64,000 nucleotides of DNA from Helicobacteraceae bacterium (lineage in GTDB: Bacteria; Campylobacterota; Campylobacteria; Campylobacterales; Sulfurimonadaceae), in NCBI GenBank assembly GCA_013138865.1, contig WTBY01000003.1, positions 1-64,000 on the forward strand, read 5' to 3'. Positions within the stretch are counted from its first letter, which is position 1. Every line of letters begins with the position of its first letter. The notes under the pieces were generated by a model. It had not been told where the DNA came from and did not search any database. It saw only the letters and a list, made by a program, of their open reading frames with translations. The position numbers and the translations under genes are program-made. Shown piece by piece: positions 15,276-21,791 of this stretch.

Positions 15276-16139
15276 TTATTTTATTAAAAAAACTGTACTG
15301 TTATCACTAAGTCCTACTAGTGAAAATTTCTTTTTATCCCACTCTTCAAAAAATAGTCCTCTGTATAGAAAGTTATTAAAGTAAAAAATGTTGCCTCCTA
15401 TAAGGTATTTATTTTTATAATTTACTAAAAAATATAGGTTATTAGTCTCATAAACTCTGTTCATAGACTTATTTCCTGTGCTGATCACTCTGTACGATTT
15501 AACATGAACTTTCTCTTTTCCATACGTTAAAACACCTTTTTCAGCATTAAAACTTACACCACCAGCAGGTAAGTGTTGTGGTTTTTTTAGATCTAGTACA
15601 AAGCCACCTTGCATACTTAACTGATCTTGTTGCGATACTTTTCCTGTGTTTATATTGTAAAGTGAAAATTCTCTTATAACATTCGCTATTTTCAGTATAT
15701 TGTCAGGTATGTAAAGAAGTGTATATTTCTCTCCCTTACACATTTTTTTCATAGGTTCACTTGATGCCGATAGATCTGAAAATAGTATTTTAGAGACTTC
15801 TCGCAAATCACTATTTGCATGACTTCCATTGTCCACAACAGGTCTCCACGATGTGTAGTATTTTAAAATATGTCCATAGTCCCACCAACTTAGCACACAA
15901 GCATTAGGAAATCTTTTGTCAAGTACTTCTAAAACCCCTACATCATTTGATCGTAGGTATTTAGGTTCAAGGTTTTTGTTTACTTCATTTATAAGTAACA
16001 TATTTACATAGAGTTGTATAGCTGTTAATAGTGCTACAATAGAAACGATTATAACTCTTTTTATAGGCAATTTTTCTAATAGAAGAAATAGTAAATATAT
16101 CGCTCCTGCATTAATAACTATACCCCCCAAAAAGTGCAA
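15276..16139 (-). CDS. pglB: PglB-like oligosaccharyltransferase, C-terminal part (out of frame)
   Basis: The C-terminal 280 residues of a PglB/STT3-type enzyme. It begins in the last membrane helices and then carries the acceptor-binding signature W85-W86-D87-Y88-G89 (numbering of this fragment), followed by 'WRPVVDNG'. In PglB the WWDYG motif contacts the Ser/Thr of the sequon. The frame opens only because of a shift at the six-C run 16123-16128; its nominal TTG start at 16139 is unlikely to be used. With one G less in the coding strand the two halves form one enzyme of about 675 residues, close to the usual 700 or so. Confidence 0.85.
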   Translation of the reverse strand: MHFLGGIVINAGAIYLLFLLLEKLPIKRVIIVSIVALLTAIQLYVNMLLINEVNKNLEPKYLRSNDVGVLEVLDKRFPNACVLSWWDYGHILKYYTSWRPVVDNGSHANSDLREVSKILFSDLSASSEPMKKMCKGEKYTLLYIPDNILKIANVIREFSLYNINTGKVSQQDQLSMQGGFVLDLKKPQHLPAGGVSFNAEKGVLTYGKEKVHVKSYRVISTGNKSMNRVYETNNLYFLVNYKNKYLIGGNIFYFNNFLYRGLFFEEWDKKKFSLVGLSDNSTVFLIK

Positions 16140-17298
16140 ACCTTAGACCTCCTAAAAATGTGCCAGCTATCGAGAGGTAGATCCAAATAAGTAAAAAGTT
16201 TAAATGTTTATACCTAATAGAGAGTAAAAGAGATCCTATAAATGATATGTAGAAAATATACTCATAGTTATTTAAAAATTTCAAAGTAGCTTTATAGTCT
16301 AATATTTTAGACTCTTGTACTGTAGCTTGTGCGTTCATAAGATAGATCTCTTTTCCATCTTTCATAGTTGCTGTTACTTTCTTGTCTAAGGTCGCATCTG
16401 TATATGATCGTATTTTAGTCTCTATATTAGTATAATTTAAGCTAGCAAATAGTAGCCCTGTAACAAGAGTAACAATTTTTAAAACTTTCAGATCTATTTT
16501 AGTCAATAACTTAGAGTTTAAAATGTAGAGTATAAAGCCAAGCCAAGCACTAATATTTATGAATACATTATAGTTTATGAGCTTGTATAGTAACATACCA
16601 AAAGCTACGAGTATGAGTGAGTCAAAATATTCATACTTTTTTTCAAACAGAGCAAACAGGACTAAAAGTCCAACTATCGGTACTATTAAGTATATACCCG
16701 CATGGTATGTTAGTAGAAGTAAAAATATACTTAGAGTTATGATCGCATCATTTAAAATGTTTTTAGTACGAAGTTTTATAATTATTGAGCTGCTAAGTGT
16801 TGCAAGAAAAAGGATAATTAACATATCTGTATCAGCGTATCCAAGGTGTGTTCTTATGTAAAACCCAAGCACACTACTTAGTAAAAGAGCGTTAAAAAAG
16901 CCTAACCAAAAGAGTCGTAGAGAATTAAAAGCCAACACAATAGGAATAACTACAAGTGAAGAGACAACAGCAGGTAAAAAGAGCATTACTTGCTCTACAC
17001 TAAAGGGGCTATACATAGTAGTGTAAGCTACTAGGTAGGCTGTTAAGTTATGGTTGATCTGTATAGACTCACCAACTATGATTTTTTTAGCTATGTCTCC
17101 GTAGTGAGCAGCGTCATCACTCCATATAGAGAGTAGTTCCCCTGCATAATATAAACTTTGATCATCTTTAACCATGTAGTACAAACTTAGCTTTATAGCT
17201 AGTGCGACTAAAAATGCCACTAAAACAAATAGGTATAGTGTCCGACCAGTTAGGTGTTGTTTGTTAAGTGTTAAAAATGATAAAAATTTAGAGTTCAT
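16111..17298 (-). CDS. pglB: PglB-like oligosaccharyltransferase, N-terminal part (frame-shifted)
   Basis: The membrane half of an STT3/PglB enzyme, which transfers a lipid-linked glycan to Asn in the periplasm. After a first helix it has the external-loop acid pair 'WSDDAAHYGD' and the 'RTHLGYADTDML' motif (conserved metal/lipid-binding acids), then about ten more helices. It runs out of frame after 'GGLRFALFGG' at the six-base homopolymer 16123-16128 and ends 'YSY'. No glycan-building pgl genes are nearby. The gene directly upstream encodes a lipoprotein with many glycosylation sequons, which is the likely acceptor. Confidence 0.85.
   Translation of the reverse strand: MNSKFLSFLTLNKQHLTGRTLYLFVLVAFLVALAIKLSLYYMVKDDQSLYYAGELLSIWSDDAAHYGDIAKKIIVGESIQINHNLTAYLVAYTTMYSPFSVEQVMLFLPAVVSSLVVIPIVLAFNSLRLFWLGFFNALLLSSVLGFYIRTHLGYADTDMLIILFLATLSSSIIIKLRTKNILNDAIITLSIFLLLLTYHAGIYLIVPIVGLLVLFALFEKKYEYFDSLILVAFGMLLYKLINYNVFINISAWLGFILYILNSKLLTKIDLKVLKIVTLVTGLLFASLNYTNIETKIRSYTDATLDKKVTATMKDGKEIYLMNAQATVQESKILDYKATLKFLNNYEYIFYISFIGSLLLSIRYKHLNFLLIWIYLSIAGTFLGGLRFALFGGYSY
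16123..16128 (-). other. Homopolymer tract at the pglB frameshift
   Basis: Six C on the + strand (six G in the coding strand), preceded in the gene by five T. Five G would restore an uninterrupted pglB frame through 'LFGGIVINAG'. The tract is short for classical phase variation (usually eight or more), so a fixed mutation or a sequencing error is equally possible. Confidence 0.6.
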
Positions 17299-20522: not shown

Positions 20523-20879
20523 ATGGAACTTTATGAGAGAATTAACACTATACTAAAACTAAAAAAGTTAAATAAAAAAGAGTTTGCTTTAAAACTTATA
20601 GACTTATCTCCTAAGTTAAAAAGAACTGGTGAGACTCCTACACTTACCACTATTTACTCATACCTTAATGGGAATAGAGAAGTTCAAGTTGAGCTTATAA
20701 GCTATATAGCCGAAGTTTTAGACATAAGTGAACAAGAGTTATTTGAGCATAGTTCTGAACCTTATGAAGTTGAGACAGCCTCTATGCTTAAATATGCACC
20801 TAAAAGTATAGTTATGAAAATACAAGAGAAATTAGAGCCTTATAAACGAATACACGATGAGTTGGATAAAGAGATATAA
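20523..20879 (+). CDS. XRE-type DNA-binding regulator
   Basis: A 118-residue protein with an N-terminal helix-turn-helix of the Cro/C1 type (residues about 5-75; 'NKKEFALKL' and 'TIYSYLNGNREV' are the likely HTH helices) and a short helical C-terminal tail. A strong AGGAGGT stands 5-6 bases before the ATG. Upstream direct repeats suggest autoregulation, and matching repeats ahead of the sequon-rich lipoprotein suggest it also controls that gene. It is not a phage repressor with a LexA-type peptidase domain. Confidence 0.75.
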   Translation: MELYERINTILKLKKLNKKEFALKLIDLSPKLKRTGETPTLTTIYSYLNGNREVQVELISYIAEVLDISEQELFEHSSEPYEVETASMLKYAPKSIVMKIQEKLEPYKRIHDELDKEI

Positions 20880-20886
20880 TACGCTA

Positions 20887-21030
20887 TAATTTTGTCAAAG
20901 GGCTAGAGGGTTTAACCCTCTTAACTCTAAAGCTAACTTTAAATCGGAAAATTATAATAGTTAGCCTAAGTTTAAACCTTTTCATGGTTTATTCCTTTGA
21001 CAAATTTGTCCTAGCTCGTAAGAGTTAGGA
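20887..21030 (+). ncRNA. Candidate multi-branched structured RNA
   Basis: A closing stem TTTGTCAAAGG (20891-20901) / CCTTTGACAAA (20994-21004), 11 perfect pairs, encloses three hairpins: AGAGGGT/ACCCTCT (20905-20921), GCTAACT/AGTTAGC (20932-20938 / 20959-20965) and TAAACC/GGTTTA (20973-20978 / 20986-20991). A further hairpin CCTAGCTC/GAGTTAGG with a GTAA tetraloop follows (21010-21029). TATAAT boxes at 20875-20880 and 20885-20890 could start transcription at its 5' edge. No protein is encoded. It fits no RNA family I can name (not tRNA, 6S, SRP RNA or a known riboswitch). It may be independent or a leader of radC. Confidence 0.5.
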
Positions 21031-21125
21031 ACTTCTTACTTTAACTAACAACTACTCATTAAACTTAAAATATGTCAAAATGCAATATTTTTTAATATTT
21101 TATTACTTTTTAACTAAACTAACTT

Positions 21126-21791
21126 ATGAAAAAAATAGAAGATCTTTTTAATTTAGACAAACCTAGAGAAAAGTTATTTTTAAAAGGTGCTTCTTCTTTA
21201 AAAGAGTATGAGCTTATGGCTATTTTACTTGGAAGTGTTGGTGGCGATCTTTTAAGTGTCTCTAAAAAAGTGATGCGTGTTATAGAAAATAAAAATCATT
21301 CTGAATTAAGCATAAAAGATTTTACTTACATAAAAGGGATCGGTAGAGTAAAGGCTATGAACATTTTAGCTATGTTAGAGTTTCATAAACGCTTTAGCAA
21401 GAGTGAAAAACTTTTTATAAAAGATTCGCGTGTAGTGTATGAAAATTTAAAAGAGTACTATAACAAAAAGCAGGAGTACTTAATACTTTTTACTTTAGAT
21501 GGTGCAAGAGGGTTAATAGAAAAAAGAGTTATCACTATTGGTATTTTAAATGAGTCCTTGATCCACCCTAGAGAGGTTTTTGCTCCAGCCATAGAAGATC
21601 GAGCAGCTTCAATCATTTTAGCCCACAACCACCCTAGTGGTTGTTTAAAGGCTAGTGAAATGGATCTGCATATGACCAACATTATAAAGCAGAGTGCAGA
21701 ACTATTGGGTATAGAGTTTTTAGACCATATTATTTTTACTAAAGATGGTTTTAGTTCTATTTTAAATAGTGAAATTATGGGGTTTACTTAA
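21126..21791 (+). CDS. radC: RadC-family JAMM domain protein
   Basis: A 221-residue RadC homologue: helix-hairpin-helix-like region at about 65-90 ('TYIKGIGRVKAMNILAM') and a C-terminal JAMM metalloprotease fold with H167-N-H169-P-S-G and D180, the expected zinc ligands. RadC was named for DNA repair, but this role has been disproved for E. coli; related genes are frequent in mobile and defence regions. Here it lies downstream of the candidate RNA and convergent with small membrane pair B, whose last codons overlap its 3' end by 30 bases. Confidence 0.9.
   Translation: MKKIEDLFNLDKPREKLFLKGASSLKEYELMAILLGSVGGDLLSVSKKVMRVIENKNHSELSIKDFTYIKGIGRVKAMNILAMLEFHKRFSKSEKLFIKDSRVVYENLKEYYNKKQEYLILFTLDGARGLIEKRVITIGILNESLIHPREVFAPAIEDRAASIILAHNHPSGCLKASEMDLHMTNIIKQSAELLGIEFLDHIIFTKDGFSSILNSEIMGFT

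Follow-up and report, generated by a model that had tools for sequence, protein, structure and literature searches.

A probable self-locking mRNA element of Sulfurimonas-like bacteria as a candidate type I toxin-antitoxin variant

A stretch of 64,000 nucleotides from a Helicobacteraceae bacterium (GenBank assembly GCA_013138865.1, contig WTBY01000003.1, positions 1 to 64,000; GTDB family Sulfurimonadaceae), referred to here as the window, carries a compact set of nested stems between genes for an XRE-type regulator and radC. Which strand of this element is read, and what does its structure do? The original prediction took the plus strand to be a cloverleaf-like RNA, either free, or a leader of radC, or the RNA part of a system with the XRE protein. 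We find that the meaningful strand is most likely the minus strand, and we hold with considerable confidence that the locus is a type I toxin-antitoxin system in which the toxin mRNA is locked by a helix joining its 5' and 3' regions.

A minus-strand reading frame within the fold

All of the predicted plus-strand stems are present, spanning 20891-21029: an 11-bp closing stem with zero mismatches, three inner hairpins, and a fourth, 8-bp hairpin with the loop GTAA (Table 1). The RNA of 20880-21040 folds to -49.6 kcal/mol, compared with a mean of -29.1 kcal/mol for 200 dinucleotide shuffles, none of which was as stable (z = -5.4), as expected from the earlier view that such a fold is unlikely by chance. 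Two TATAAT boxes lie at its 5' edge (20875-20880 and 20885-20890), again as described before. An Rfam search of the window element returned no family at the gathering score, in keeping with the prior impression that no known RNA family is involved, and at E values up to 10 both copies of the element in this genome gave chance-level matches only. A tRNA-like or tmRNA identity was rejected, the sole match being to a distant tRNA-Phe.

The plus-strand reading left out an open reading frame (ORF) on the minus strand and the burial of its Shine-Dalgarno (SD) sequence in the closing stem. This ORF encodes a small cationic peptide of 33 codons that begins MKRFKLRLTIIIFRFKVSFRVKRV, with the SD placed inside the 11-bp stem. 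The minus strand folds with z = -6.0, and the segment 20886-21032 read in this direction gives z = -6.8.

The same genome (3.03 Mb) holds one other good match, at G000:C77:19521-19633 (70% identity, E = 6.6e-6), between what we take, from the look of the sequence, to be a ThiF-like gene and greA. This second copy folds with z = -6.8 in the plus orientation of the window and z = -8.35 on the opposite strand, and in the same frame as in the window it encodes MKRFKLKLKFNLLGFIFSFKVKRY, a peptide of 24 codons. Over the first 24 codons, four differ between the copies synonymously only. In the folds of both copies an SD ahead of the start is placed in a helix joining the RNA ends, formed by different sequences in the two copies. 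A further match at G000:C16 was rejected, since it falls within a coding gene. A search of PDB sequences with the peptide of the second copy found no match.

A family with a covarying lock and two peptide types

With blastn against 60 relatives, only short, chance-level matches appeared beyond the two own copies, several of them at ordinary gene starts. Two-sequence MAFFT alignments set the hairpins about one column off; we therefore built a covariance model (R1) from the second copy alone, entered as two identical rows, and aligned the rest to it. Among the 60 genomes, R1 recovered both own copies and elements in two further genomes (E = 1.8e-10 and 1.0e-4), each of which encodes a related 24-residue peptide in place. 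A second covariance model (R2) was made from these four elements. Within the window's family it had matches at an E value of 0.1 or better in 41 genomes out of 228, and within the order in 16 out of 398. From its 56 rows in the family we removed two reverse-strand duplicates, four weak matches without an ORF (L122-L125), and one ORF without the RNA frame (L085). This leaves 49 elements in 39 of the 228 genomes which, together with one element from another family (L074, in genome G058), make 50.

Convincing elements found with model R3 in the phylum sample were confined to the window's family and G058 (5 of 225 genomes); a sixth match, in G317, was rejected because it resembles a terminator. 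With R3 at an E value of 0.01, 10 of the 398 genomes in the order sample gave a match: six carry elements, one (G158) is remnant-like, and three are unsupported. The weak matches outside the family (L075-L084, L086, L135, and L136) were treated as chance, as were L122-L125 inside it. Of these, all but L079, L081, L082, L083, and L136 were inspected; in none of them does the RNA frame contain an ORF for the family peptide, while several resemble ordinary terminators or gene starts.

Three loci stand out by their arrangement. One contig (L067; G238:C8) carries three same-strand elements in 2.3 kb (571-728, 1501-1659, and 2675-2834), all with TTG starts and a cationic peptide of the kind called type A below. 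At L138/L085 (near 1501; G226:C1:1904940-1905049), a type A ORF and its SD stand without the 5' stem-loop, the lock, or the promoter boxes. At L137 (about 1501-1632, in G158), upstream of a kdsA-like start, the sequence resembles a decayed element with traces of a type A peptide.

The compensatory changes in relatives that a structured RNA should display were found. In an alignment of 38 elements made with R2 (A11), 92.5% of pair cells are standard, compared with 64.9% after shuffling, and 43 of the 46 base pairs have two-sided changes. The alignment scores 0.728 for covariation, compared with 0.233 when shuffled and at most 0.146 when slid, and none of 500 shuffles scored as high. Folded singly, every one of the 50 elements reached z = -5.6 or lower (median -9.0), 49 formed at least five pairs joining the 5' and 3' regions, and in 38 the mRNA strand was the more stable one. 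Four homologues show 12 G-U pairs against 2 A-C mismatches on the minus strand; their alignment followed a model of that strand, which biases the comparison in its favor.

We then computed the cost of opening the SD. Its median is 12.5 kcal/mol in the full RNA, 6.1 kcal/mol without the last 30 nt, and 6.8 kcal/mol with those 30 nt shuffled. The drop amounts to 3 kcal/mol or more in 38 of the 44 elements with a usable ORF; for the window copy the predicted cost is 14.4 kcal/mol with the last 30 nt and 3.8 kcal/mol without them. Both ends of the element also carry promoter-like boxes, which are consensus matches, unlike mapped starts. Just ahead of the 5' stem-loop, a TATAAT-like box agrees with the consensus at 6/6 positions in 34, 5/6 in 13, and 4/6 in 3 of the 50 elements; a reversed box just beyond the 3' strand of the long helix agrees at 6/6 in 45 and 5/6 in 5.

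Peptides of 24 to 25 residues escape the usual gene callers. The 50 elements comprise 38 with an intact 24-codon type A ORF, the window copy with its 33 codons, five with a different peptide (type B), and six with broken ORFs. Type A peptides share M-K-[KR]-F and L6, alternate hydrophobic and basic residues, and begin with ATG or TTG after an SD. Among one-base codon differences in type A, 48% are synonymous where 22% are expected, the comparisons being pairs of related sequences that are not independent. The broken ORFs lack a start codon (L047), stop early (L068 and L109), lack the start region (L111 and L120), or are cut short (L121); six broken ORFs in kept RNA frames fit the expectation for a costly gene. 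The mean net charge of type A is +6.9, and its two halves show strand-like periodicity (moment at 180 degrees, 0.95 and 0.81). AlphaFold2 places residues 2-24 of the window peptide in a helix (mean predicted local distance difference test score 77, with about 86-91 across the first 20 residues; predicted template-modelling score 0.37), which argues against reading it simply as a strand. For one common type A subtype, a DNA pattern retrieved eight sequence records (six titled Sulfurimonas, one Campylobacterales, one Helicobacteraceae), from which we take the window's family to be that of Sulfurimonas, and one type A peptide searched against plasmid and phage collections found no match.

Type B is an unrelated, hydrophobic peptide of 25 residues, such as MKYLDTILKVLTIVYMMIKIYQAVN, with helix-like periodicity that is best at 110 degrees. 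A profile of the five type B peptides matched 25 of the 228 family genomes, the window genome not among them. From these, 20 type B loci were fetched, five of them already known, and the RNA model built on type A had a match in every one of the remaining 15 (E = 6.2e-10 to 1.6e-4). The peptide profile and the RNA model thus recover each other independently, which supports the toxin-antitoxin reading. The type B loci are L115-L119 and L139-L158; a simple pattern script saw the ORF in 10 of 17 loci and missed it in 7, among them L152, which has an internal stop. Neither peptide type matched Pfam or NCBIfam, two type B peptides having been tested. Beside recG, type A occurs in some species (L061, L073, L113, and L114) and type B in others (L115-L119).

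Because both peptide types occur in one RNA frame, even beside recG, the frame seems to persist longer than the peptide it carries. We are evenly divided on the broader proposal that the cargo is interchangeable, in which case a conserved self-locking mRNA with an opposed promoter would stay at fixed sites in Sulfurimonas-like genomes, carrying either the cationic or the unrelated hydrophobic peptide, and the regulatory RNA rather than the toxin would be the lasting unit. With different cargo at one place, whether RNA or toxin is kept can be tested, and the strong covariation makes the family useful for testing how an mRNA lock evolves.

Table 1. Features of the window element, with window positions and the strand on which each is read
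Feature	Position	Strand	Basis
Candidate toxin mRNA -10 box, TAAAGT	21038..21043	-	Consensus match, 4/6
5' stem-loop of the putative toxin mRNA	21010..21029	-	Folds (arms 21010-21017/21022-21029; 1 of 8 pairs is G-U on the plus strand); corresponds to A11 helices 1 and 2, 11/11 pairs with two-sided changes
5' strand of the long-distance (5'-3') helix, containing most of the SD	20994..21004	-	Folds, covariation, SD-opening cost
SD, AAAGGA	20993..20998	-	Sequence
Start-codon hairpin	20974..20990	-	Folds (arms 20974-20978/20986-20990); A11 helix 5
Putative toxin ORF, 33 codons and stop	20884..20985	-	First 24 codons align with the type A family
Central hairpin within the ORF	20932..20965	-	Folds (arms 20932-20937/20960-20965); A11 helix 6
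3' hairpin	20905..20921	-	Folds (arms 20905-20911/20915-20921); A11 helix 7, 11/11 pairs with two-sided changes
3' strand of the long-distance helix (anti-SD side)	20891..20901	-	Folds, covariation, in silico trimming
Putative antisense (antitoxin) -10 box, TATAAT	20885..20890	+	Consensus match, 6/6
Predicted antisense RNA	20897..21036	+	Start set some 7 nt beyond the -10 box; complementarity spans the full mRNA

Proposed mechanism and competing explanations

The conservation of the ORF, the fold, its covariation, the lock seen in silico, and the two -10 boxes at fixed places together support a type I system, which we propose would work as follows. The toxin mRNA would be read on the minus strand, starting at the stable 5' stem-loop, and would encode the small cationic peptide (24 residues, or 33 codons in the window copy). 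Once the mRNA is completed, its 3' end would pair with the 5' region and bury the SD, so that the full-length mRNA would be silent; the SD would become accessible once roughly 20-30 nt had been trimmed off the 3' end. An antisense RNA started from the TATAAT just beyond the mRNA 3' end, a role that the plus-strand box at 20885 fits, would be complementary to the whole mRNA and would trap the unlocked form, blocking its translation and exposing it to RNase III. The target of the peptide is probably the membrane of its own cell. Transcription, 3' trimming, antisense action, toxicity, and its target at these loci are what we infer from the computational results.

Several points weigh against this scheme. 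The A11 alignment was fitted to the model, which favors structure, and the ORF was included in the models that found most members, which makes the number of intact ORFs partly dependent on how they were found; the type B result is free of this dependence. We looked by eye for a clear terminator and saw none on either strand. In the window copy the toxin -10 box is among the three poorest of the 50, and the stop after codon 24, present in the 38 intact relatives, is absent. Because its toxin -10 box is weak and this stop is absent, the sequence suggests that the window copy is partly decayed and is losing its toxin, and so it may now make mostly antisense RNA.

The decay could be taken one step further: the window toxin would be dead, and the part being kept would be a plus-strand ghost antitoxin that acts in trans, with the sister locus or other mRNAs as its targets. 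We regard this as possible but doubtful. The perfect antisense -10 box beside a poor toxin box and the absent stop agree with it, and so does the predicted pairing of the window plus-strand RNA with the sister mRNA (-97 kcal/mol, compared with -37 kcal/mol for shuffled controls), although that pairing follows from the 70% identity of the copies with no function needed, and the cognate duplex at the window locus is much stronger (-241 kcal/mol). A parallel is NikS of Helicobacter pylori, for which PMC8687705 suggests a degenerate type I system as the origin. The window ORF, however, is open through codon 24, and the 11-bp lock is intact.

We consider it improbable that the plus strand is a non-coding structured RNA, whether a small RNA, a radC leader, or a partner of the XRE protein, with the minus-strand ORF incidental. 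The plus strand does fold almost equally well, and its -10 box is the better of the two in the window copy. A free RNA or radC leader is nevertheless the less good reading, as what is conserved is an SD-preceded ORF on the minus strand, kept at 24 codons in 38 of the 50 elements with an excess of synonymous change; the G-U bias and the greater stability of the mRNA strand in 38 of 50 point the same way. The neighbors also differ elsewhere, which tells against an RNA-XRE system: relatives of the element sit between EamA and kdsA, beside recG, and at other places, the second copy lies by ThiF-like and greA genes, and an XRE paralogue stands without an element. Least credible, to the point of being very improbable, is a small mobile repeat like a miniature inverted-repeat transposable element, with the closing stem as its terminal inverted repeats. 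Such a repeat would fit with finding the element twice in this genome at unrelated sites, with the inverted repeats close to its ends, and with the three copies in 2.3 kb of G238 (L067). Yet neither of the two copies has a convincing target-site duplication (a 6-base repeat in the window belongs to the stems, and the second copy has only TATA), the long helix varies by compensation between copies, unlike a conserved terminal sequence, and many elements hold the same place across species.

A locked type I system thus remains our preferred reading, and under it the XRE gene (20523-20879, plus strand) and radC (21126-21791) are mere neighbors of the element; neither recurs beside it in relatives. 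The common sites are, by gene names given from the look of the sequences, between an EamA-type transporter gene and kdsA, beside recG with a glyQ-like gene upstream, and before a DinB-like gene; the RadC assignment comes from a protein-family search. A RadC search of the genome contig collection gave no match. The small XRE-type protein of the window, apparently unrelated to the RNA, has a longer paralogue at G000:C16 (L039, 1778-2224, minus strand), with no element nearby; a weak PADLOC match to PDC-M69A (E = 2.5e-5) was noted. Elsewhere in the window, two overlapping minus-strand ORFs (15276-16139 and 16111-17298) resemble what we presume to be one frameshift-split STT3/PglB-type protein.

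Relation to known locked toxin mRNAs

The closest likeness is to aapA/IsoA of Helicobacter, for which PMC6733600 describes a full-length mRNA that is silent and forms a 5'-3' interaction, its activation through 3' processing, a cis antisense RNA, and folding conserved at loci in related species; PMC8322730 adds that the duplex is destroyed by RNase III. In nine aapA loci that we read, the order of parts is similar to that of the present elements: a -10 box, a 5' stem-loop, an SD in a 5'-3' long-distance helix, the ORF, and a 3' hairpin. An ORF of 24-30 codons, a cis antisense promoter, and multiple chromosomal copies are further points in common, and the hiding of the SD by the long-distance helix is shared in silico.

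The differences lie in sequence and layout. Against the profile of type A peptides, AapA1 scored no better than 1394 of its 20000 shuffled versions (100 of 5000 in an ungapped comparison). An AapA1 search of the order matched 11 of 396 genomes, all of one genus and none in the window's family, and R3 gave no significant match on 17 aapA loci (best E = 0.02, off the ORF, and 0.041 in L104, at the ORF). The antisense-facing -10 box lies inside the ORF in all nine aapA loci read, and beyond the mRNA 3' end in the present elements. Type A peptides do not end in Lys-Arg, the ending expected of AapA, one residue following the Arg23 position; many members have a basic pair at positions 22-23, both positions vary, and in the window copy ten residues follow. 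A hydrophobic second peptide type in the same RNA frame also distinguishes the present family. In our literature search no paper joined AapA with Sulfurimonas or Sulfurimonas with a type I toxin, Arnion et al. 2017 being outside its reach, and none joined Sulfurimonas with toxin-antitoxin and antisense RNA.

Two other systems offer likenesses. In hok/Sok of the E. coli plasmid R1, as outlined in PMC6733600, pairing of the 5' and 3' ends silences the mRNA and 3' processing activates it; the silencing is alike, the peptide and the phylum differ, and we draw the parallel by description, not by sequence. Type B recalls the small hydrophobic type I toxins reviewed in PMC8309996 in being short, hydrophobic, and helix-periodic, but it differs in having no Pfam or NCBIfam match for the two peptides tested and in sharing its RNA frame with the cationic type A.

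Since the similarity to AapA1 is little above chance, the AapA1 search is blank in the family, the R3 matches are non-significant, the antisense promoter lies elsewhere, and the Lys-Arg end is absent, we regard the family as a novel form of type I toxin-antitoxin system with a 5'-3' lock, and not as a member of aapA/IsoA. If this is true, such locked systems extend from Helicobacter to apparently free-living Sulfurimonas-like relatives, with two new features there: an antisense promoter placed differently, and two unrelated peptide types carried in one RNA frame.
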